Positions 384 to 53,210 of a DNA stretch of 64,000 bases are shown here, piece by piece. The stretch is from Mammaliicoccus sciuri. GTDB lineage: Bacteria > Bacillota > Bacilli > Staphylococcales > Staphylococcaceae. The position numbers and the translations under genes were made by a program. The stretch covers positions 372,001 through 436,000 of the forward strand of contig NZ_CP094824.1 of assembly GCF_025561425.1 (NCBI RefSeq), written 5' to 3'. The notes under the pieces are model-generated. The model did no database searches. It had not been told where the DNA came from and saw nothing but the letters and a program-made list of their open reading frames with translations. Positions within the stretch are counted from its first letter, which is position 1. Each line of letters starts with the position of its first letter.

Positions 384-481
384 AACGATTTTGTAAAGTG
401 CTGACGCCTGAGGGAAAAGTATGCGTGAGAGACTACAGGCTCGAACCATACCATAGGCAAGCATGCACGAACAAAATCGTA
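384..481. repeat. ~96-bp structured intergenic element with nested inverted repeats
   Basis: A perfect 10-bp inverted repeat, ACGATTTTGT (385-394) and ACAAAATCGT (471-480), encloses further nested pairs: GTGC near 398 with GCAC near 465, GCC with GGC, GCCTG with CAGGC, and GTATG with CATAC. The interior is richer in GC than the surroundings. It resembles the intergenic palindromic elements or small structured RNAs common in staphylococci, but I cannot name it. No reading frame of useful length is present. Confidence 0.55.
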
Positions 482-7217: not shown

Positions 7218-8266
7218 ATAAAGTAGAAATAAAAGAAACTAACAATGATAATTTTAAAAAATTAACATCAGTTTCTGATGAAGACGTTAATGATCAAATT
7301 AAGGTTGAAGAATTTAGATTTGATAATAACACTTTACATCCTAACAATTCTGGATATTCAAAAATGAGTAGCAAATTCAGGGTTGATGGTACAGTTAAAG
7401 AAGGTGATTATTTTACATTTGTTATTCCTGAAAATTTAACAGTTGACGGAGATATTGACTATTCAAAAACTGATAATTCTATGAAATTAGTTGATATTAA
7501 AAATGCAAATGGAGATATTGTTGCAAAAGGCGAATATAATGTACTTTCTAAAAATGGTAGGTATATTTTCACTAATTATGTAAATGATAAAGAAAATATT
7601 AACGGATTTTTTGAGTTACCACTATGGACTGATAGAAAAATCACTCCTTATTCAGGGAACTATGATGTTCAATTTGATATAGCTAATCAAAAATTTAATT
7701 CTAATATAGATATTGATTATGGTAATCCGTCGATGGGACTTCCAGGTAAAGATGGAGCAAATGTTTCGTCGTTTATTACAAAAATAGATAATGCTTCAGG
7801 AGAACGAACATATAAACAAACTATATATGTGAATTCAAAAAATAACAATTTAAGAGACACAATTGTGACTTTGCAGGGTTATCATAATGATCCTAATACA
7901 AGTAGTACAGTTCTAAATAAAGATGTTACTAAATTTAAAGTGTATAAATTAGCTGATGGTGCAAAAGTAACTGACAGTTATTATATTGATCCTAATAGCT
8001 CTAATTATATTGATGTTACTAATGGTGTTTTACCATATATCTATGATAATGGTGATAACACTATCACATTTAATTTTGGTGATATCAATGAAACTTACAT
8101 TATAACTGTAGATGGTCAGTATGATGATAGCGGAGAAAACGTGAAGACAAGAGTAACTGAAACAAATAGTGACATTTATGGTGTAAAAAGGAAATCTTAC
8201 TATTGGGATAATGAGAACATAATTCGCACTGGTGATGGTGGAGCAGATGGAGATAATAGACAGAAA

Positions 8267-9270
8267 TATAAATTAGGTAATTATGTATGGCATGATATTG
8301 ACTGAGATGGTGTACAAGGAACAGATGAAAATGAGAAACCAATTTCAAATGTAGAAGTAATTTTACGAGACGAAAATGGTAAAGAAATAGGTAGAACAAA
8401 AACAGATGAAACAGGTTATTACGAATTTGATGGATTAGAGAATGGGAACTATGAAGTTGAATTTATAACACCAGAAGGTTTCGAAGAAACGCCAACAGAA
8501 CAAGGTGAAAATGAAGAAACAGATTCAAATACAAGAATCACAAAAGCAACAATTGATGGCGCAGATAACATGAGTGTTGATAAAGGTTATTATAAGCCGA
8601 CATATAAATTAGGTAATTATGTATGGCATGATATTGACCGAGATGGTGTACAAGGAACAGATGAAAATGAGAAACCAATTTCAAATGTAGAAGTAATTTT
8701 ACGAGATGAAAATGGTAAAGAAATAGGTAGAACAAAAACAGATGAAACAGGTTATTACGAATTTGATGGATTAGAGAATGGGAACTATGAAGTTGAATTT
8801 ATAACACCAGAAGGTTTCGAAGAAACACCAACAGAACAAGGTGAAAATGAAGAAACAGATTCAAATACAAGAATCACAAAAACAACAATTGATGGCGCAG
8901 ATAACATGAGTGTTGATAAAGGTTATTATAAGCCGACATATAAATTAGGTAATTATGTATGGCATGATATTGACCGAGATGGTGTACAAGGAACAGATGA
9001 AAATGAGAAACCAATTTCAAATGTAGAAGTAATTTTACGAGATGAAAATGGTAAAGAAATAGGTAGAACAAAAACAGATGAAACAGGTTATTACGAATTT
9101 GATGGATTAGAGAATGGGAACTATGAAGTTGAATTTATAACACCAGAAGGTTTCGAAGAAACGCCAACAGAACAAGGTGAAAATGAAGAAACAGATTCGA
9201 ATACAAGAATCACAAAAGCAACAATTGATGACGCAGATAACATGAGTGTCGATAAAGGTTATTATGAATT
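8267..9270 (+). repeat. Three 336-bp B repeats of the adhesin
   Basis: Units start at 8267, 8603 and 8939, exactly 336 bp (112 codons) apart, each beginning [12 protein letters not shown]. They are nearly identical. They carry the [13 protein letters not shown] calcium-binding-type loop known from SdrD B domains. Unit 1 holds the TGA nonsense codon. Confidence 0.92.
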
Positions 9271-9446
9271 AGATGACTCTGACTCAGATGCGGACAGCGA
9301 TTCAGACGCAGACAGTGGTTCAGACGCAGATAGCGACTCAGATGCGGATTCTGATTCAGATGCGGATTCTGATTCAGATGCGGACTCTGACTCAGACGCG
9401 GACAGTGACTCAGATGCAGATAGCGATTCAGACTCTGACTCAGATA
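9271..9446 (+). repeat. Ser-Asp/Ala dipeptide stalk repeat
   Basis: Alternating DSD and DAD codons in six-base steps, the SD stalk that carries Sdr proteins through the cell wall. It is short compared with typical Sdr stalks. Confidence 0.9.
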
Positions 9447-12724: not shown

Positions 12725-12792
12725 AATTTTCATTTTACAACTTTAGATTATATGTTAGTATATCTTAACGATTAATTTAAAGGGGGTAAATG

Positions 12793-13419
12793 ATGTTTGA
12801 TATCGTATCTTTTCAACTGTTTTTAATCACAGTGCTTATCATCTGTATCACACCTGGTATTGATATGATGTTTATACTAAATAGAAGTATTTCACAAGGT
12901 AGAGATGCAGGTATATATTCAGCATTAGGTGTTTCGGTTGGTGCAGTTGTTCATACTGTACTGTCAGGAATAGGGTTGTCTGTTATTTTACAAACTTCCG
13001 TTGTCTTGTTCACAATTATTAAAATTATCGGAGCAGTATATTTAATTTATTTAGGTATACAAATGTTTATAAGTAAACAATCTTCAATCTCAATAAAGAA
13101 GACTGTGTATCAATCTCGTAGAAAATTATTATTACAAGGCGTGATCACGAACGTTACGAATCCTAAGGTAGCACTATTCTTTATTTCCTTTATTCCACAG
13201 TTTATTTCAGTGGATAATCAGTACGGTCCAATACCATTTTTAATATTGGGCAGTATTTTCGCAGTAATGGGTGCGATAACATCATTTATCATTGTGATCT
13301 TTTCAAGTAGTTTAACAACAAAATTAAGAGATAATATCGTAGCAGAAAAAATTATCAATAAAATAAGTGGAGCAGTATTTGTCATATTAGGAATAAGTCT
13401 ATTTGGTACAAAATCATAA
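12793..13419 (+). CDS. LysE/RhtB-family amino-acid exporter
   Basis: 208 residues with about six membrane helices. The N-terminal TPGIDMMFILNRSISQGRDAGIYSALGVSVGA motif and GVITNVTNPKVALFFISFIPQF in the middle are hallmarks of LysE/RhtB efflux proteins, which export amino acids or analogues. Two adjacent ATG codons (12790 and 12793) are possible; the AGGGGG site fits the second better. A strong terminator follows. Confidence 0.88.
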   Translation: MFDIVSFQLFLITVLIICITPGIDMMFILNRSISQGRDAGIYSALGVSVGAVVHTVLSGIGLSVILQTSVVLFTIIKIIGAVYLIYLGIQMFISKQSSISIKKTVYQSRRKLLLQGVITNVTNPKVALFFISFIPQFISVDNQYGPIPFLILGSIFAVMGAITSFIIVIFSSSLTTKLRDNIVAEKIINKISGAVFVILGISLFGTKS

Positions 13420-13427
13420 AGAAGTGA

Positions 13428-13469
13428 AAATGGCGCGGGACATTGAATGATGTCCCGGCCATTTTTTTA
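13428..13469 (+). terminator. Terminator after the LysE gene
   Basis: AATGGC-GCGGGACAT pairs with ATGTCCCG-GCCATT and is followed by a seven-T run. Confidence 0.88.
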
Positions 13470-13500
13470 TTGGGGAATAGTGGGATGAATGAAGTGACGC

Positions 13501-13785
13501 TGAATTTATCAAGACTGGCTAAACAAGATAAATAGAGGCGCTGTATTTATCAAGACTGAGCAAACAAGATAAATAGGAGGTCTGAATTTATCAAGACTGG
13601 CTAAACAAGATAAATAGAGGCGTTGTATTTATCAAGATTGACCAAACAAGATAAATAGAGGTGTCGAATATTGCAAGTGGAGCGTGACTAGCAACATTGG
13701 AGGTCTGAATATTGCAAGTGGGACGTGACTAGAAATGTTGGAGTTCTGAATATTGCAAGACTGCCCAAACAAGCAACATACATCC
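13501..13785. repeat. Array of seven ~41-bp hairpin units with exchangeable stems and loops
   Basis: Units begin near 13501, 13542, 13583, 13624, 13666, 13706 and 13747. Units 1-4 have stem ATTTATC/GATAAAT around a 16-nt loop of the type AAGACTGGCTAAACAA. Units 5 and 6 have stem AATATTGC/GCAACATT (imperfect in 6) with a different loop, AAGTGGAGCGTGACTA. Unit 7 combines stem ATATTGC/GCAACAT with the first loop type (AAGACTGCCCAAACAA). Both arms change together. The 13420-13964 gap holds no gene; 13786-13940 is C-rich and then AT-rich spacer leading to the ABC exporter. A sister array lies at 39.25-39.50 kb. Confidence 0.85.
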
Positions 13786-13964
13786 GCCGAACCCTAAAAC
13801 TCCAGTACCCCACACCTCCCAATCTCCCTCATCTACAAAATTCCCGTATACGCCATTCGGATGATTTTCATATAAATGTATGAAAATTATGAACTTTCAA
13901 TTTTCAGATGATTGTTTTGTGCTAAAATTTTAAATGTGTAGATATAAGGGGAGTGTGGACGATT

Positions 13965-15755
13965 ATGAAGGTATTTGCAAAATTGGGCTGGTTTATTAAA
14001 CAAGAAAGGAAAAATTATATTTTTGGCATTCTCATATTATTACTTGTAGCACTAATTGATTTGTTGCCTCCACAAATTATCGGTCGAGTGATTGATGGTA
14101 TTAGCTTTAATACTTTAACGGGAAAGACGCTTCTTATTTATCTCATCATTTTATTTCTTGCTGCTGTATTAACATATGTATTTCGTTACTACTGGCGTAT
14201 TATGATATTCGGGGCGAGTATGAGGTTAGGAAAGATATTAAGAGAGCGACTGTATCATAAATATACGTCGATGAGTCCTTCTTTTTTCCAAGAAAGACGT
14301 ACTGGCGATTTAATGGCACATGCTACCAATGATATTAGAGCTGTTCAGAACACTGCAGGTGGCGGCGTTCTGACAATTGCGGATTCACTGATGTCAGGTG
14401 GAGCTGTTCTGATTACTATGGCGATTACTGTTGATTGGCGTTTAACTTTAATTGTGATGATTCCACTTCCTATTATGATTATATTAACGAGTTATTATGG
14501 TAAATTGCTTAACCGCGGTTTCAAAAAGGCACAAGCTGCGTTTAGTCAGTTGAATGATAAGACTCAAGAGAGTATTGCTGGGATAAAAGTTACAAAGACA
14601 TTTGGTTATGAAAAAGACGATCAAGCAGATTTTAAGCAACTAAGTGATGATGTGGTGTACAAAAATTTAAAAGTTTCTAAAATTGATGCGTTGTTTGATC
14701 CAACCATTATGTCAGTAATTGGTGTGAGTTATTTTTTAGCGATATTCTTTGGCGCAAGAATGGTGATTCAAGATGATATTACAATTGGACAACTTGTTAC
14801 ATTTACAACTTATTTAGGGATGATGGTTTGGCCACTACTCGCACTTGGATTATTCTTTAACATTGTTCAAAGAGGTCATGCTTCATATGAAAGAATTAAT
14901 GAAATTACCAATGTTCCAAACGATGTCGATACAGAAGTTAAGACGGATATGATTCCTGAAGGGGATATTCATGTTGACATTAAATCCTTTAAATTTCCAA
15001 ACGATGATAAAGTGGCATTACATGACATTCATTTCACGATTGAAAAAGGTACAACATTAGGTATTGTTGGTCGAACAGGGTCAGGTAAAAGTGCAATCAT
15101 TCGTCTATTATTACGCGAATTTGATACGAAAGAAGCGGATGAAATGATATATGGTCATCATCCATTAAGTTATTTTAATATTCGCCATTTAAGAGCGCAA
15201 TTTGGTTATGTCCCTCAAGACCATTTTTTATTCTCGACTTCAATAAGAAATAACATTGCCTTTAGCGATCCGACTATCGATGATGACATCATTCATAACG
15301 CGAGTAATATTAGTTATATTCACCAAGATATATTAAGCTTTCCTGAAGGCTACAATACAGTTGTCGGTGAGAGAGGTGTTTCATTATCAGGCGGTCAGAA
15401 GCAAAGGATTTCTATCGCAAGAGCATTAATTATGAATCCCCCTGTACTGATATTAGATGATTCATTATCAGCAGTAGATGCAGAAACTGAAGAACATATA
15501 CTTGAAAATATGCAGAATGTCAGACAAGGTAAGACGAATATTATAACAGCTCATAGAATGAGTGCTGTCAGTCATGCCGATATGATTATCGTGATGGATG
15601 AAGGCACAATCATTGAACGCGGTACACATCAAGAGTTGATGAATCTTAAGGGTTGGTATTATGACACGTATCAATCACAAGCGTTGCATGAAAAGCTTGC
15701 GAGTAGTCTAGATGAATTGGCAAAGGGGGGCTACAACGATGGCACAAAATCATAA
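13965..15755 (+). CDS. ABC exporter half-transporter, degenerate-site subunit (YheI/BmrC type)
   Basis: About 596 residues. A six-helix transmembrane domain (residues 1-300) is followed by an ATPase domain with Walker A GRTGSGKSA, signature LSGGQKQRIS, and Walker B LILDDSLSAVDAE. The residue after the Walker B Asp, normally the catalytic Glu, is Asp here, as in BmrC-type subunits whose own ATP site is degenerate. It should pair with the next gene to form a heterodimeric drug or lipid exporter. The ATG at 13965 has AAGGGGAG 11 bases away; a GTG at 13953 overlaps that site and is less likely. Confidence 0.85.
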   Translation: MKVFAKLGWFIKQERKNYIFGILILLLVALIDLLPPQIIGRVIDGISFNTLTGKTLLIYLIILFLAAVLTYVFRYYWRIMIFGASMRLGKILRERLYHKYTSMSPSFFQERRTGDLMAHATNDIRAVQNTAGGGVLTIADSLMSGGAVLITMAITVDWRLTLIVMIPLPIMIILTSYYGKLLNRGFKKAQAAFSQLNDKTQESIAGIKVTKTFGYEKDDQADFKQLSDDVVYKNLKVSKIDALFDPTIMSVIGVSYFLAIFFGARMVIQDDITIGQLVTFTTYLGMMVWPLLALGLFFNIVQRGHASYERINEITNVPNDVDTEVKTDMIPEGDIHVDIKSFKFPNDDKVALHDIHFTIEKGTTLGIVGRTGSGKSAIIRLLLREFDTKEADEMIYGHHPLSYFNIRHLRAQFGYVPQDHFLFSTSIRNNIAFSDPTIDDDIIHNASNISYIHQDILSFPEGYNTVVGERGVSLSGGQKQRISIARALIMNPPVLILDDSLSAVDAETEEHILENMQNVRQGKTNIITAHRMSAVSHADMIIVMDEGTIIERGTHQELMNLKGWYYDTYQSQALHEKLASSLDELAKGGYNDGTKS

Positions 15756-19673: not shown

Positions 19674-20572
19674 TCAATATGTTGGCTGTGCTTTTATAAG
19701 CGCAGCCATTTTTAATGAAATTCTTTTAGAATTATAAAATTTTATATATTCATTTATTTGCTTTGTGGCGTGTTTTATATCATTGAATGTTTGAGATTTG
19801 TCTTTGAATACCTCTGATTTGAGTAACCCCCAAAAGCCTTCCATAGGACCATTATCAATACATCTACCTACACGAGACATGCTTTGCTTCATAGAAGCAT
19901 TTTTAATCATCTCTCTAAATAGAACACTCGTATATTGGAATCCTCTGTCGCTATGAAATATAATGCCTTCGGTATTTCTTTTAATTATGGCTTTGTTAAA
20001 GGTATCGTATACAAGCTTATTATTGTTTTGAGATGAGACTACATGGCTGATGACTTTCTTAGCACCTAAATCATAAATAGCGCTTAAATACACTTTAGAT
20101 CCATTTTTCAATTTAAATTCTGTCACATCTGTTAACCAGACCTTATTAACTTTACTTGTTGTAAATTTTCTGTTTAGGATATTTTGAGAAGTGATTTCTG
20201 GCTTACTAAGTTTATATTGCCTTCTCTTTTTTCTAATGACAGCTTTTAATCCATACTTCTTCATAATTCTATATACGCGTTTATGATTAACCTGGAATTT
20301 AGTATATAATCTCAGATAAATATAAATTCTTCGATATCCATATATGCCATCATGTTCATGATAAATCCTGAAAATCTCATCTTTTAATTCGTTATTGAAT
20401 CTTTCAGATTCTGAAACCTCTCTGTTTTTCCATTTATAATAACTTGCTCTCGATATTTCAAGTGCGGCGCATATCCATTTGATTGGATACTTATCTTTTA
20501 ATGCTTCGATTGTCTTGTATGCTGCTATTTGCTTGATTTTCGATTCATCAACTGCCTCTCTATTTCTTCCTG
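19674..20572 (-). CDS. IS-A OrfB, DDE transposase, copy 1 (made by minus-1 frameshifting)
   Basis: The frame is open from the slippery site to 19674, giving about 300 residues fused to OrfA. The rve integrase core shows D in WLTDVTEFKL, D in FHSDRGFQYTS and E in GPMEGFWGLLKSE. A shorter product could start at an internal ATG (20264), but the YGYRRIYIYLRLYTKFQVNHKRV segment upstream is family-typical and in frame. Confidence 0.9.
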
Positions 20573-21226
20573 CTTTTTTAATACCTCATTCTCCATTTGG
20601 AGAAATTTATTTCTTTGTTCAAGTGCTTTTATTTTTAATTCAAGTTCTTCTTCTCTAGTTAAAGCTTCAACTGGTTTTCCTTTACCTCTACCATCTACTA
20701 AACCAATATCACCATGTTTTTCATACTTTTTTACCCAATTATAGACTTGTGAATAGTTAACTTGGTACTTTTCAGCTGTCTTATTAAAGTCTCTATTATT
20801 TTCAATACAATATTTAGCTATTTCAATTCTCTCTTCAAATGTTGTTTTTCTAGTATTCATAGTGTCTACCTCCAGATATGGAAAATAAGATTTATTTTCC
20901 TTTCCTTCAGTATACTTTTCCACCCAATTTTTTAAAGTAGCATGATGTGAAATATTGTAATAGGCTGCTAGATCTGAATACGTCTTATTAGTCTCTAGAT
21001 ATTCTTTAACAACTTTTTCTTTAAATTCGCGTGTATAGATTTTATTTCGATTCTTATTTATAAGTGCTGTTATACCATGTTGCTTATACACTTTATATTT
21101 AAATCGAATCACACTATCACTAATATCTAAATTTAACTTATCAATTATATTTTGAAAGGAATAACCCTTTTCATGCAAATCGAAGATTTCCTGATACAGT
21201 TTAACAGGTAGTCTAGTTTTATACAT
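20525..21226 (-). CDS. IS-A OrfA (HTH protein), copy 1
   Basis: 233 residues with repeated helix-turn-helix units (SFQNIIDKLNLDISDSVIRFK, YSDLAAYYNISHHATLKNWV, FNKTAEKYQVNYSQVYNWV) and a C-terminal leucine-rich coiled coil (LELKIKALEQRNKFLQMENE). It binds the IS ends. At 20573-20579 (minus) the slippery heptamer A AAA AAG lies in the right phase to feed the minus-1 frame of orfB, with a GGAGAATGAGG Shine-Dalgarno-like stretch just upstream that could stimulate slippage. Confidence 0.9.
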   Translation of the reverse strand: MYKTRLPVKLYQEIFDLHEKGYSFQNIIDKLNLDISDSVIRFKYKVYKQHGITALINKNRNKIYTREFKEKVVKEYLETNKTYSDLAAYYNISHHATLKNWVEKYTEGKENKSYFPYLEVDTMNTRKTTFEERIEIAKYCIENNRDFNKTAEKYQVNYSQVYNWVKKYEKHGDIGLVDGRGKGKPVEALTREEELELKIKALEQRNKFLQMENEVLKKQEEIERQLMNRKSSK

Positions 21227-23497: not shown

Positions 23498-23851
23498 ATG
23501 GCATGTAAAATAGATAGGATTTATAATAATCTTGATGAAAAAGGTGTAAGAGTATTAGTGGACCGAGTATGGCCGAGAGGGATATCTAAAGACAAAGCAA
23601 ATTTAGATCATTGGTTAAAAGACATCGCGCCCTCTAGTGAATTAAGAAAATGGTTCAATCACGAACCAAGCAAATTTGAAACATTCAAAGAAAAATATAA
23701 ACAAGAACTCGAATCCGGAGATCAACAAGAAGCTTTAAATAAGCTAAAAGAAATATATAAAGACAATAAACAAACACTCATCATTCTGTATGGCGCTAAA
23801 GACGAAAAACACAATCAAGCAATCGTGTTGAAAGAAATATTGGATGGGTGA
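23498..23851 (+). CDS. DUF488-family protein
   Basis: 117 residues. The VDRVWPRGISK motif and the C-terminal LIILYGAKDEKHNQAIVLKEIL match the short DUF488 family. These are small cytosolic proteins of unknown biochemical function with one near-invariant Arg-rich loop. Good AAAGGAG site. It stands alone, followed by hairpin repeats and IS-C. Confidence 0.85.
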   Translation: MACKIDRIYNNLDEKGVRVLVDRVWPRGISKDKANLDHWLKDIAPSSELRKWFNHEPSKFETFKEKYKQELESGDQQEALNKLKEIYKDNKQTLIILYGAKDEKHNQAIVLKEILDG

Positions 23852-23930
23852 GTCATGGCTTAAGTGCTGAATAAAGCCAAGAGATAGCGAAAGTCATGGC
23901 TTAACGCCTGAATAAAGCCAAGAGATAGCC
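23850..23930. repeat. Two 41-bp hairpin repeat units
   Basis: Two copies of AGTCATGGCTT, loop (AAGTGCTGAATA or AACGCCTGAATA), AAGCCAAGAGATAGC, starting 41 bp apart (23852 and 23893). The stem TGGCTT/AAGCCA is perfect in both; the loop start varies. Same period as the arrays at 13.5 and 39.3 kb but different sequence. IS-C begins seven bases after it. Confidence 0.75.
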
Positions 23931-23991
23931 CAATTCTGATGTGAACCCAAATATTTGAACTAAACAAATCAAAATATTGGGGTGCATTCTA

Positions 23992-26949: not shown

Positions 26950-26983
26950 AAAAATTTAATTATAAGTATAAGTAAGCTTATAT

Positions 26984-27079
26984 ACGCCACTTTCCTACGC
27001 CAGTATGAACTGGATCAGGTTCAAGGAATCCCGAAGTCACTACTTCAGTCTCAGCCTATAATAAGGCACTTCCAGTGGA
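26984..27079 (-). promoter_or_regulatory. TPP riboswitch (THI element)
   Basis: On the minus strand the order is CCACT (P1), GGCTGAGACTGAAG, GGGATTCCTTGAACCTGATCC, AGTTC, then GCGTAGGAAAGTGG. CTGAGA, ACCTGATC and GCGTAGGAA are the diagnostic THI-box blocks that bind thiamine pyrophosphate. The outer CCACT/AGTGG closes the aptamer. It controls tenI-thiO. Confidence 0.95.
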
Positions 27080-27264
27080 CATTTATTCAATTATTACATC
27101 CATTGTACATATAAAAGTAAGAATGTTCAAATTTATATTTTTAGTCTGGTAAATACCACAATAATCTTAATCTATAAATTGTTATTATTTTAATATTTGG
27201 AATAAATTGTACAAATTTAATAGTAAATTTGATAATATATAAGAAAAGGTCAAAGGAGTACTAT

Positions 27265-38010: not shown

Positions 38011-38643
38011 ATGAAATTACAATTAGCAATTGATTTATTAAATAAAGAAGAAGCAGCTCAATTAGCGCAACAAGTTGAGGAATATGTAGATATAGTAGAA
38101 ATCGGTACACCTATCGTTATTAATGAAGGATTAGGTGCAGTAGAAAAATTAAGTCAATCTGTTAAAGATGTTCAAGTATTAGCTGACTTAAAAATTATGG
38201 ATGCTGCTAGTTATGAAGTAAGCCAAGCTGTTAAATTTGGGGCGGATATCGTAACAATTTTAGGTGTAGCAGAAGATGCTTCTATTAAAGGTGCAGTTGA
38301 AGAAGCACATAAACATGGTAAAGAATTATTAGTGGATATGATCGCAGTTCAAGATTTAGAAAAACGTGCGAAAGAATTAGACGCATTAAGTGCAGATTAT
38401 ATCGCTGTGCATACTGGTTATGATTTACAAGCTGAAGGTGTATCACCATTAGAAAGCTTACGTACAGTTAAATCAGTTATCAAAAATTCAAAAGTAGCAG
38501 TAGCAGGTGGTATTACACCAGAAACAATTCAATCTGTTGCTGATGAAAATCCAGATTTAATTATTGTCGGTGGAGGAATTGCTAACGCAGACGATCCAAA
38601 AGCAGCTGCAAAATTATGTAGAGAAATTATTGAAGGTAAATAA
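38011..38643 (+). CDS. hxlA: 3-hexulose-6-phosphate synthase
   Basis: 210 residues, an orotidine-decarboxylase-like barrel: MKLQLAIDLLNKEEAAQ, ADLKIMDAASYEVSQAVKFGAD (catalytic Asp/Lys), LVDMIAVQDLEKRA, and VAGGITPETIQSV near the C-terminus. It condenses formaldehyde with ribulose-5-phosphate. The ATG at 38011 matches the family N-terminus; AAAGGAG lies upstream. Operon with hxlB, 1 bp apart. Confidence 0.93.
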   Translation: MKLQLAIDLLNKEEAAQLAQQVEEYVDIVEIGTPIVINEGLGAVEKLSQSVKDVQVLADLKIMDAASYEVSQAVKFGADIVTILGVAEDASIKGAVEEAHKHGKELLVDMIAVQDLEKRAKELDALSADYIAVHTGYDLQAEGVSPLESLRTVKSVIKNSKVAVAGGITPETIQSVADENPDLIIVGGGIANADDPKAAAKLCREIIEGK

Positions 38644-38644
38644 T

Positions 38645-39184
38645 ATGAGCCCTTATCAATTAATATTGGATGAAATTAAGCAAACATTAAATCAAGTAGA
38701 CTTGATGGATACTGAGCAATTCGTAAATAGCTTGTTGTCAGAAGATCCAGTGTTTGTAGCAGCTAAAGGACGCTCTGCATTTGTCGCGAACGGTTTTGCT
38801 ATGAGATTGAACCAATTAGGTAAGAAAAGCTATGTAGTAGGTGAGACGAGTACACCTTCTATTCAAGAAGGAGATAAATTATTGATTGTCTCCGGATCAG
38901 GCTCAACAGCTCACTTGAAATTACTCGCACAAACAGCAAAAGATATCGGAGCGAATGTCATATTAATTTCTACAAAAGAACAATCACCAATCGCTGAAAT
39001 AGCAGATGACGTGATCGTTTTACCAGCAGGTACTAAATATGATGAAAAAGGATCAGAACAACCACTAGGAAGTCTGTTCGAACAAAGCACTCAATTATAT
39101 TTAGATAGTATCGTAATGGATTTAATGGAACAATTAAACGTAAGTGAAACATATATGCAAAATAAACACGCGAATTTAGAATAA
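38645..39184 (+). CDS. hxlB: 6-phospho-3-hexuloisomerase
   Basis: 179 residues with one SIS domain: AAKGRSAFVANGFAMRLNQLGKKSYVVGE, then LLIVSGSGSTAHL and GTKYDEKGSEQPLGSLFEQSTQLYLD. It converts hexulose-6-phosphate to fructose-6-phosphate, completing formaldehyde fixation. It starts 1 bp after the hxlA stop, so translation is coupled. Confidence 0.93.
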   Translation: MSPYQLILDEIKQTLNQVDLMDTEQFVNSLLSEDPVFVAAKGRSAFVANGFAMRLNQLGKKSYVVGETSTPSIQEGDKLLIVSGSGSTAHLKLLAQTAKDIGANVILISTKEQSPIAEIADDVIVLPAGTKYDEKGSEQPLGSLFEQSTQLYLDSIVMDLMEQLNVSETYMQNKHANLE

Positions 39185-39249: not shown

Positions 39250-39500
39250 AGGTGTGAATATTGCAAGTGAGGTGTGACTAGCAATGTTGGGGGTCTGAAT
39301 ATTGCAAGTGAGGTGCGACTAGCAATATTCAGGACCTTGTATTTATCAAGACTGGTGAAACAAGATAAATAGGCGCGTTGTATTTATCAAGACAAGCGAA
39401 ACAAGATAAATAGGAGCTCTGTATATTGCAAGACTCCCCAAACAAGCAACATAGCTCGCCCGTATATTGCAAGACTCCCAAAACAAGCAATATAGAACCT
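39250..39500. repeat. Second array of ~41-bp hairpin units (six units)
   Basis: Units 1-2 carry stem AATATTGC/GCAATATT (or GCAATGTT) around AAGTGAGGTGTGACTA. Units 3-4 carry ATTTATC/GATAAAT around AAGACTGGTGAAACAA or AAGACAAGCGAAACAA. Units 5-6 carry ATATTGC/GCAACAT or GCAATAT around AAGACTCCCCAAACAA-type loops. These are the same stems and loops as at 13.5 kb, in a different order. The array sits between hxlB and the lrgB-type gene and has no coding capacity of its own. Confidence 0.85.
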
Positions 39501-39570
39501 CGTACAGCCCTAAATACAGACCTACAAACTCATTCCAATCTCAAACTCTTTATAATTCTCCTCTAAATTC

Positions 39571-40254
39571 TCAATATATTAATATAACAAACAATGGTAT
39601 CACGACTGAGCTGATTAAGGCTGTTAGAATCATGCCGATTGAACTGAAGGCTGCTGATTCGATATCAGTTTCTAATATTTTGGCTGTCCCAATAGCATGT
39701 GAGGCATTGCCATAAGTGAGTCCTTTGGCAATGGATGTTTGGAATTTGGCTATTTTGATAAGATATGATCCCAACATACTTCCAATTAATCCTGTACCTA
39801 TAATAAACAACACGGCCAAGCTATCTATTCCGCCTATTTGTTGTGATACTTGTACACCGACTGCTGCTGTTATAGATCTAGGCAACAGCGATGCGATCAT
39901 TTCTTTTGAATAACCGAATATATTTAAAATCGTAAACATTAAAATAATATTAATCGTTATCCCAACTAATACACTCGTGATAATGACTTTGAAATGTTGA
40001 ACAATCATTTTTCTATATAAATATAGTGGATATGCTAAACATACAACTGTGCAATTTAAAAAGTCATAAATCCATTGTCCACCTACCATATAGTCGTTGT
40101 AATTATATCCAAATAACACAAGTACACAGATAATCGCAACGGATGAAACGAGTGCAGGGTGTAAGATGGCGATCTTGAATTTTTTCTGTATAAATAATGC
40201 GAATATGTACATGATAACTGTTAAAAGAATCATTAAAAGTGCTTTAATCATCAT
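39571..40254 (-). CDS. LrgB/CidB-family membrane protein
   Basis: 227 residues, about seven membrane helices. The [38 protein letters not shown] motif and the C-terminal [18 protein letters not shown] block define the family. It works with the LrgA/CidA-like protein encoded just upstream (overlapping by 4 bp) in lysis control or export of small metabolites. It is the second LrgB-type protein in the window and is clearly different from the one at the left edge. Confidence 0.87.
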
Positions 40255-42638: not shown

Positions 42639-43340
42639 ATGTATAAAACTAGACTACCTGTTAAACTGTATCAGGAAATCTTCGATTTGCATGAAAAGGG
42701 TTATTCCTTTCAAAATATAATTGATAAGTTAAATTTAGATATTAGTGATAGTGTGATTCGATTTAAATATAAAGTGTATAAGCAACATGGTATAACAGCA
42801 CTTATAAATAAGAATCGAAATAAAATCTATACACGCGAATTTAAAGAAAAAGTTGTTAAAGAATATCTAGAGACTAATAAGACGTATTCAGATCTAGCAG
42901 CCTATTACAATATTTCACATCATGCTACTTTAAAAAATTGGGTGGAAAAGTATACTGAAGGAAAGGAAAATAAATCTTATTTTCCATATCTGGAGGTAGA
43001 CACTATGAATACTAGAAAAACAACATTTGAAGAGAGAATTGAAATAGCTAAATATTGTATTGAAAATAATAGAGACTTTAATAAGACAGCTGAAAAGTAC
43101 CAAGTTAACTATTCACAAGTCTATAATTGGGTAAAAAAGTATGAAAAACATGGTGATATTGGTTTAGTAGATGGTAGAGGTAAAGGAAAACCAGTTGAAG
43201 CTTTAACTAGAGAAGAAGAACTTGAATTAAAAATAAAAGCACTTGAACAAAGAAATAAATTTCTCCAAATGGAGAATGAGGTATTAAAAAAGCAGGAAGA
43301 AATAGAGAGGCAGTTGATGAATCGAAAATCAAGCAAATAG
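42639..43340 (+). CDS. IS-A OrfA, copy 2
   Basis: 233 residues, identical in translation to copy 1. Slippery A AAA AAG at 43286-43292, preceded by GGAGAATGAGG. Confidence 0.92.
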   Translation: MYKTRLPVKLYQEIFDLHEKGYSFQNIIDKLNLDISDSVIRFKYKVYKQHGITALINKNRNKIYTREFKEKVVKEYLETNKTYSDLAAYYNISHHATLKNWVEKYTEGKENKSYFPYLEVDTMNTRKTTFEERIEIAKYCIENNRDFNKTAEKYQVNYSQVYNWVKKYEKHGDIGLVDGRGKGKPVEALTREEELELKIKALEQRNKFLQMENEVLKKQEEIERQLMNRKSSK

Positions 43341-44191
43341 CAGCATACAAGACAATCGAAGCATTAAAAGATAAGTATCCAATCAAATGGATATGCGCCG
43401 CACTTGAAATATCGAGAGCAAGTTATTATAAATGGAAAAACAGAGAGGTTTCAGAATCTGAAAGATTCAATAACGAATTAAAAGATGAGATTTTCAGGAT
43501 TTATCATGAACATGATGGCATATATGGATATCGAAGAATTTATATTTATCTGAGATTATATACTAAATTCCAGGTTAATCATAAACGCGTATATAGAATT
43601 ATGAAGAAGTATGGATTAAAAGCTGTCATTAGAAAAAAGAGAAGGCAATATAAACTTAGTAAGCCAGAAATCACTTCTCAAAATATCCTAAACAGAAAAT
43701 TTACAACAAGTAAAGTTAATAAGGTCTGGTTAACAGATGTGACAGAATTTAAATTGAAAAATGGATCTAAAGTGTATTTAAGCGCTATTTATGATTTAGG
43801 TGCTAAGAAATTCATCAGCCATGTAGTCTCATCTCAAAACAATAATAAGCTTGTATACGATACCTTTAACAAAGCCATAATTAAAAGAAATACCGAAGGC
43901 ATTATATTTCATAGCGACAGAGGATTCCAATATACGAGTGTTCTATTTAGAGAGATGATTAAAAATGCTTCTATGAAGCAAAGCATGTCTCGTGTAGGTA
44001 GATGTATTGATAATGGTCCTATGGAAGGCTTTTGGGGGTTACTCAAATCAGAGGTATTCAAAGACAAATCTCAAACATTCAATGATATAAAACACGCCAC
44101 AAAGCAAATAAATGAATATATAAAATTTTATAATTCTAAAAGAATTTCATTAAAAATGGCTGCGCTTATAAAAGCACAGCCAACATATTGA
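43293..44191 (+). CDS. IS-A OrfB, DDE transposase, copy 2 (minus-1 frame)
   Basis: Open from the slippery site to 44191. It differs from copy 1 by a Val to Phe change (GAKKFISH for GAKKVISH). All three catalytic acids are present, so it should be functional. Confidence 0.9.
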
Positions 44192-51657: not shown

Positions 51658-52556
51658 TCAATATGTTGGCTGTGCTTTTATAAGCGCAGCCATTTTTAAT
51701 GAAATTCTTTTAGAATTATAAAATTTTATATATTCATTTATTTGCTTTGTGGCGTGTTTTATATCATTGAATGTTTGAGATTTGTCTTTGAATACCTCTG
51801 ATTTGAGTAACCCCCAAAAGCCTTCCATAGGACCATTATCAATACATCTACCTACACGAGACATGCTTTGCTTCATAGAAGCATTTTTAATCATCTCTCT
51901 AAATAGAACACTCGTATATTGGAATCCTCTGTCGCTATGAAATATAATGCCTTCGGTATTTCTTTTAATTATGGCTTTGTTAAAGGTATCGTATACAAGC
52001 TTATTATTGTTTTGAGATGAGACTACATGGCTGATGACTTTCTTAGCACCTAAATCATAAATAGCGCTTAAATACACTTTAAATCCATTTTTCAATTTAA
52101 ATTCTGTCACATCTGTTAACCAGACCTTATTAACTTTACTTGTTGTAAATTTTCTGTTTAGGATATTTTGAGAAGTGATTTCTGGCTTACTAAGTTTATA
52201 TTGCCTTCTCTTTTTTCTAATGACAGCTTTTAATCCATACTTCTTCATAATTCTATATACGCGTTTATGATTAACCTGGAATTTAGTATATAATCTCAGA
52301 TAAATATAAATTCTTCGATATCCATATATGCCATCATGTTCATGATAAATCCTGAAAATCTCATCTTTTAATTCGTTATTGAATCTTTCAGATTCTGAAA
52401 CCTCTCTGTTTTTCCATTTATAATAACTTGCTCTCGATATTTCAAGTGCGGCGCATATCCATTTGATTGGATACTTATCTTTTAATGCTTCGATTGTCTT
52501 GTATGCTGCTATTTGCTTGATTTTCGATTCATCAACTGCCTCTCTATTTCTTCCTG
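51658..52556 (-). CDS. IS-A OrfB, DDE transposase, copy 3 (minus-1 frame)
   Basis: Open from the slippery site to 51658. One Ser to Phe change (NGFKVYL) next to the first catalytic Asp region; catalytic acids intact. Confidence 0.88.
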
Positions 52557-53210
52557 CTTTTTTAATACCTCATTCTCCATTTGGAGAAATTTATTTCTTT
52601 GTTCAAGTGCTTTTATTTTTAATTCAAGTTCTTCTTCTCTAGTTAAAGCTTCAACTGGTTTTCCTTTACCTCTACCATCTACTAAACCAATATCACCATG
52701 TTTTTCATACTTTTTTACCCAATTATAGACTTGTGAATAGTTAACTTGGTACTTTTCAGCTGTCTTATTAAAGTCTCTATTATTTTCAATACAATATTTA
52801 GCTATTTCAATTCTCTCTTCAAATGTTGTTTTTCTAGTATTCATAGTGTCTACCTCCAGATATGGAAAATAAGATTTATTTTCCTTTCCTTCAGTATACT
52901 TTACCACCCAATTTTTTAAAGTAGCATGATGTGAAATATTGTAATAGGATGCTAGATCTGAATACGTCTTATTAGTCTCTAGATATTCTTTAACAACTTT
53001 TTCTTTAAATTCGCGTGTATAGATTTTATTTCGTTTCTTATTTATAAGTGCTGTTATACCATGTTGCTTATACACTTTATATTTAAATCGAATCACACTA
53101 TCACTAATATCTAAATTTAACTTATCAATTACATTTTGAAAGGAATAACCCTTTTCATGCAAATCGAAGATTTCCTGATACAGTTTAACAGGTAGTCTAG
53201 TTTTATACAT
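52509..53210 (-). CDS. IS-A OrfA, copy 3
   Basis: 233 residues with a few substitutions relative to copies 1-2. Slippery A AAA AAG at 52557-52563 (minus). Confidence 0.9.
   Translation of the reverse strand: MYKTRLPVKLYQEIFDLHEKGYSFQNVIDKLNLDISDSVIRFKYKVYKQHGITALINKKRNKIYTREFKEKVVKEYLETNKTYSDLASYYNISHHATLKNWVVKYTEGKENKSYFPYLEVDTMNTRKTTFEERIEIAKYCIENNRDFNKTAEKYQVNYSQVYNWVKKYEKHGDIGLVDGRGKGKPVEALTREEELELKIKALEQRNKFLQMENEVLKKQEEIERQLMNRKSSK

Follow-up and report, generated by a model that had tools for sequence, protein, structure and literature searches.

BIMEs prefer the 3′ ends of genes, and the REP sequence of REP/BIME arrays is a GC-rich palindrome with a head of the GTAG or GGAG type. REPs have also been reported as targets of IS elements (PMC1525189). 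STAR elements are intergenic and dispersed, and consist of tandem units of ∼56–59 bp with spacers, in variable copy number (PMC3532100). Both STAR and the dru repeats of SCCmec are used for typing staphylococcal strains, and the sister-genus family described here amounts to over a hundred units per genome.

The window analysed, a stretch of 64,000 nucleotides (positions 372001–436000 of the 2.92 Mb genome) from Mammaliicoccus sciuri, contains two arrays of short tandem units with palindromic arms (Table 1). Both belong to a large intergenic family of 41-base palindromic tandem repeats in the genus Mammaliicoccus, apparently new to the literature, which represents a novel family within a known class, that of bacterial intergenic palindromic repeat arrays.

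Table 1. Features of the window associated with the repeat arrays, and the only Rfam match (positions within the window).
Feature	Position	Strand	Description
Module X copy	398–468	-	72 bp, GTGCATGCTTGCC..GCCTGTAGTC..GTCAGCAC; alone, sole copy in window
LysE-type translocator gene (PF01810)	12790–13419	+	upstream of first array
Terminator-like hairpin	13430–13470	+	GGCGCGGGACATTGAATGATGTCCCGGCC followed by T-run, between LysE-type gene and array; read from sequence alone
First array, units 1–4 (type B)	13502–13665	+	arms ATTTATC/GATAAAT, 16-nt loop AAGAYTGRSYAAACAA (AAGAYTG..AAACAA); read from sequence and covariance model
First array, units 5–6 (type A)	13666–13747	+	arms ATATTGC/GCAACAT (unit 6: mutated GAAATGT), loop AAGTGGRRCGTGACTA (AAGTG..ACTA)
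First array, unit 7 (type C)	13748–13788	+	arms ATATTGC/GCAACAT, B-type loop AAGACTGCCCAAACAA; 3′ end of array
ABC exporter gene (ABC_membrane and ABC_tran)	13953–15755	+	downstream of first array
TPP riboswitch (RF00059)	26975–27083	-	Rfam
SIS-domain gene	38564–39184	+	left of second array
Second array	39256–39502	+	six units, order A A B B C C
LrgB-like gene	39571–40254	-	right of second array

An earlier sequence-only reading had described the first array as seven units of ∼41 bp with two stem types and two loop types, the last unit joining the second stem to the first loop. All of this was confirmed in the sequence: the array, also detected by TRF, spans 13502–13788, with units of 41 bp each starting at 13502, 13543, 13584, 13625, 13666, 13707 and 13748. 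The unit with the second loop had 4 matches within the window versus 0 in 100 dinucleotide shuffles, so that the pattern is far from chance. This array sits between codirectional genes. The second array, which had been placed at 39.3 kb, does exist, with its boundaries corrected to those of Table 1 and one 42-bp step among its six units; it is flanked by a convergent gene pair.

Each unit is composed of a 5′ arm (7 nt), a loop (16), a 3′ arm (7) and a spacer (about 11, arm to arm), and of 434 steps measured, 426 had a period of 41 bp. Loop and spacer each have a dyad at their centre, so that an arm recurs every ∼20.5 bp, or two helical turns, on alternating strands. The arms are conserved, and so are an AAG that follows the 5′ arm and an AC close to the end of the loop, the invariance of these two motifs being partly by construction because the pattern used for extracting units required them; loop centre and spacer are the variable parts. 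Arm classes comprise ATTTATC/GATAAAT, A[TC][AG]TTGC or AAATTGC with GCAA[CT][AG]T and, in the relative G007, TGATTGC with GCAATCA or GCAACGA. A CRISPR was rejected, as a 41-bp period with a variable gap of ∼7 bp leaves no room for spacers.

A covariance model of 41 nt, of the kind proposed by the sequence-only reading along with a search of relatives and trained on 30 units from seven genomes, retrieved the family from related genomes, with 83 matches distributed over 16 loci for the genome under study, 181 over 37 for G007, and 215 over more than 40 for relative G002. The units of the first array scored E-values down to 1e-9 genome-wide, in a model built from units of the family which its own members match by construction; plain BLAST also recovered the other loci and other species, and detected the family in all eight Mammaliicoccus genomes, two of them weakly. 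Among 108 Staphylococcaceae genomes, the model matched 7 of the 8 genus members and a single unit in one other genome (G024), at the same gene as one locus of this genome. Arrays are nearly absent from G003 and G004, and a search of named genomes with the exact unit pattern returned M. sciuri and M. fleurettii only, the genome under study possibly being omitted from the list. In Rfam, no family exceeded the gathering threshold over the window except the TPP riboswitch, and arrays and module X at loci L032, L037, L042, L048 and L066 gave no match; searches of plasmids, phages and viral contigs were equally negative, and the literature searched on intergenic repeats of the sciuri group contained nothing on this family. 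The earlier impression that no named family has this design stands as far as searched, with only STAR and dru comparable in the literature.

Like the Mammaliicoccus arrays, STAR elements are intergenic and dispersed tandem units of variable copy number at species-specific loci. Their start signature GTGGGACAGAAATGAT, of GGGACA type, is comparable with the GTCTGGGACAGAAATGTTC hairpin found to the left of six arrays here, and their palindromic spacer parts differ between units (as read from L055–L059), the hairpin inserts changing in both arms. However, the Mammaliicoccus arrays have a 41-bp period and lack the defining motif TNTGTTGNGGCCC, a repeated 14-bp motif of the form T(G/A/T)TGTTG(G/T)GGCCC(C/A), which had 0 matches in this genome and seven relatives, against as many as 142 on a strand in species of Staphylococcus. 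Of three STAR variants, one aligned full-length to the unit of G006 above shuffles (p = 0.005, one of four tests), whereas the other two and dru did no better than shuffles (p = 0.33–0.61), and scanning of STAR loci with HMM and covariance models yielded no match. A GCAAG-N14-CAACA spacing seemingly shared with STAR by eye was discarded, the STAR gaps actually being 12, 15 and 16. From such comparisons, homology with STAR would be weak at best.

The case of dru is different in that a neighbouring element is shared. Module X, a 71–73-bp repeat with inverted ends and a consensus fold that includes three pairs with two-sided changes, occurs near arrays in G002 and G007, not beside those of the window. 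It also adjoins the dru array of SCCmec in two Staphylococcus genomes; there it matches its placement at the arrays of G002 and G007 in both side and orientation and is 92% identical to a G002 copy, and thereby ties some array neighbourhoods to the dru region through a conserved module of 72 bp. The site of primer druR2, whose sequence is given in PMC3636274, falls within module X. While dru is also an intergenic tandem array of ∼40 bp units, its unit is unrelated in sequence to ours (alignment p = 0.5 versus shuffles), and the covariance model found no match in the dru loci L066 and L067; the two systems share a neighbour, not a proven ancestor. That our unit family is a direct relative of STAR or dru, as the common organisation, the left signature, the single significant alignment and module X might suggest, is thus judged decidedly improbable, and both were dismissed as parent families since unit homology is unsupported or weak by motif, alignment and models.

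REP/BIME arrays resemble ours as intergenic arrays of alternating palindromic units with mosaic units, and the targeting of REPs by IS elements compares with IS256-like insertions inside arrays here. They differ from the present family in its AT-rich 7-mer arms (by inspection) and strict tandem period of 41 bp.

Whole arrays have been gained or lost between close species. Flank-to-flank comparison with G001, the closest relative compared, found the arrays to be shared at most of the sites tested; two sites, at 1,663,480 and 2,139,864, are empty in G001 with intact flanks, and the DNA inserted in this genome includes the GTCTGGGACAGAAATGTTCTAGACTC hairpin; both insertions relative to this close species brought a terminator-like hairpin along with the array. 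At 2,139,864, the extra DNA begins with GAGTTTGGGACAGAAATGTTCTAGACTC and stops within the final unit; at 1,663,480, a single terminator-like hairpin (CCCGCTTCACT..AGTGAAGCGGG) in G001 corresponds to hairpin, array and hairpin in this genome. The boundaries differ between the two comparisons, so that a defined transposing unit is not proven. The left hairpin with TTTTTCRTATTTTTAGAAATA is common to six arrays of this genome, many G007 loci carry module X or part of it on the left and a right module GCTAACGAGATAG, and most sampled G002 loci carry module X and AAGTACATGCT on the left. Different unit types occupy orthologous sites (385502 in this genome and L079 in G007; 411256 and L109 in G002), and at the site of our array at 1,070,833, G002 carries an inverted single unit with module X. 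The arrays behave as cassettes, with units apparently homogenised within genomes; orthologous arrays across species could also be old loci under selection at particular genes.

A second pattern was noted in the location of arrays. Among 53 loci, with gene context taken from a simple ORF caller run on the fetched flanks, 30 lie between convergent and 15 between codirectional genes, 5 are antisense to both neighbours and 3 lie between divergent genes, relative to a background of 5 convergent pairs out of 63 neighbouring gene pairs (∼8%; this window, a small sample). Arrays strongly prefer gaps between convergent genes. With fork direction judged from the located dif and from dnaA at the contig start, arrays are co-oriented with replication at 14 of 16 loci in this genome (binomial p = 0.004) and at 36 of 37 in G007 (p = 6e-10), i.e. 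50 of 53 over the two genomes. The G007 exception is a near-palindromic locus readable either way, and one of those in this genome lies 16 kb from dif. The five loci antisense to both neighbours still follow the fork, not the genes. In G002, 20 of 41 arrays are fork-coherent (counted by hand) and no bias is seen, so that the orientation rule is lineage- or cassette-specific rather than general. It is conceivable, if doubtful, that in two species the arrays are locked to the fork whatever the neighbouring genes, and between convergent genes, as a directional chromosome element whose unit sequence is renewed in each species; such an element would then consist of DNA sites, or of products of single-strand copying at the fork.

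The sequence-only reading had argued for selection on a folded structure from stem swaps that alter both arms. Such swaps do recur across species: in 30 units from seven genomes, two-sided changes occur at 4 of 7 stem pairs and 92.9% of cells pair, whereas shuffles reach 73% and slid controls no more than 49%; these figures are not independent proof because the aligned units are related to each other and also supplied the structure of the model. In this genome, the stem type changes in 15 of 63 spacers versus 5 of 77 hairpin loops (Fisher p = 0.006). On the other hand, it changes equally often in spacer and loop in G005, and chimeric units with non-complementary arms make up 5 of 77 units in this genome, mostly B units that close an array and end with GCAACAT (L011, L012, L016), and 6 of 31 in G005. 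The dominant G007 unit (128/200), ACATTGC/GCAACAT, displays one-arm drift with two uncompensated plus-strand changes, which is the very observation that had been named beforehand as speaking against structural selection. Individual B and C units in the window fold about as well as shuffles (z from +0.7 to -1.6), and only the AAGTG-loop type folds clearly better, on some strands; z-scores of -2.5 and -2.9 for the whole array on the two strands are inflated, as the repeats contain both arms many times. As for the plus-strand A-C mismatches that become G-U wobbles on the minus strand, which had been taken as a hint of a folded minus-strand RNA, they are real in units 5 and 7, but the reverse is found elsewhere in the genome, where units with arms ATATTGC/GCAATGT have G-T on the plus strand. 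Counted by distinct arm pair, deviations that favour the minus strand outnumber those favouring the plus strand by 34 to 14 (p = 0.006), a bias which is a hint only because nearly all deviations trace to few inherited types.

Selection on RNA structure is thus only partly supported. Under such an explanation, the units would be RNA hairpins selected in a transcript, as part of a 3′-UTR or an antisense RNA and possibly on the minus strand; their role would be to halt RNA decay or to obstruct convergent transcription. The two-sided changes, the preference of stem-type changes for spacers in this genome, the wobble counts, the whole-array folding and the position between convergent 3′ ends all fit, yet the mostly shuffle-like folding of single units on both strands, the chimeras, the uncompensated changes in the commonest G007 unit and the lack of an Rfam match make this explanation unlikely. 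A palindromic DNA site explains the same pairing data; palindromy is loosely conserved and does not single out RNA. A slightly better case can be made for double-stranded sites of a chromosome-organising protein, with dimers spaced 41 bp apart on the same face of the helix, following the fork direction and located where supercoils are trapped by convergent transcription. The 41-bp period corresponds to some four turns of the helix and the spacing of inverted half-sites to some two, and species-specific unit types at all loci would fit co-evolution with a binder, in addition to fork coherence in two genomes and the convergent preference. We nevertheless regard this as a minority possibility: there is no known binder, the fork bias is missing in G002, close species differ in which arrays they have, arrays are nearly absent in G003 and G004, and half-sites are asymmetric beyond the 7-bp arms, with AAG on the 5′ side only. 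Dispersal by a single-strand Y1 transposase (TnpA_REP/RAYT-like), as for REP, would also account for palindromic units and fork orientation in two genomes, but is very improbable indeed. Unlike REP/BIME, the family has no Y1/RAYT partner in seven of the eight genus genomes, where PF01797 is absent, including the array-rich G007 and G002, for which present-day Y1 activity is largely refuted, though an enzyme since extinct may have acted earlier; the copies in this genome have the appearance of a single recent IS200/IS605-type element and are unlinked to the arrays.

The explanation we favour, and consider reasonably probable, overlaps with that of chromosome-protein sites: the arrays would be passively maintained, non-coding and non-autonomous intergenic cassettes, with palindromic arms kept since a process at the DNA level recognises or generates them. 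Already shown are the dispersal in many copies, the fixed period, the strong preference for convergent gaps and the fact that entire cassettes come and go between close species; orthologous sites also carry unit types particular to each species, and orientation follows the fork in two of the three genomes tested. A cassette would consist of tandem 41-bp imperfect palindromes, whose left side frequently carries a terminator-like or otherwise structured module. Unit number may shift by slippage or unequal recombination within the array, and units may be homogenised between loci of one genome. The arms would be retained via DNA recognition, either by a dimeric DNA-binding or recombination protein or through a hairpin formed transiently in single-stranded DNA as it is copied; cassettes presumably survive best where no promoter is harmed. 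Organised in a BIME- or STAR-like manner, they would persist in a way that resembles the supposed life of REP/BIME arrays. No mobilising enzyme, target duplication, binding protein or linked gene product was identified for the arrays. With its insertion polymorphism, convergent preference and fork coherence, the family offers a tractable system for studying the function and spread of such repeats.

Several mobile or repetitive sequences were also encountered. An IS256-like element (translation by inspection) interrupts the arrays at 999,986 and 1,568,108 (L013:2111-3540 and L015:2152-3562), and its end also borders an array of G005 (L025) and interrupts dru in the same genome (L062); these insertions were found via their contact with arrays, so that no preference is claimed. 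The Y1 (IS200/IS605-type) transposase is present in about nine copies in this genome (G000:C1:1758260 and eight other places) and in none of seven other genus genomes. In the window, an IS3-type element encoding an HTH protein (233 aa) and an rve integrase (196 aa) occurs three times (19674–21226, 42639–44191 and 51658–53210), and an unrelated 41-bp tandem pair with palindromic core TGGCTT..AAGCCA (23851–23929) lies beside a transposase-like ORF at 23977. Finally, a coding region at 8266–9441, with three near-identical repeats of 336 bp and then an Asp/Ser-rich repeat, resembles an Sdr-type surface protein.
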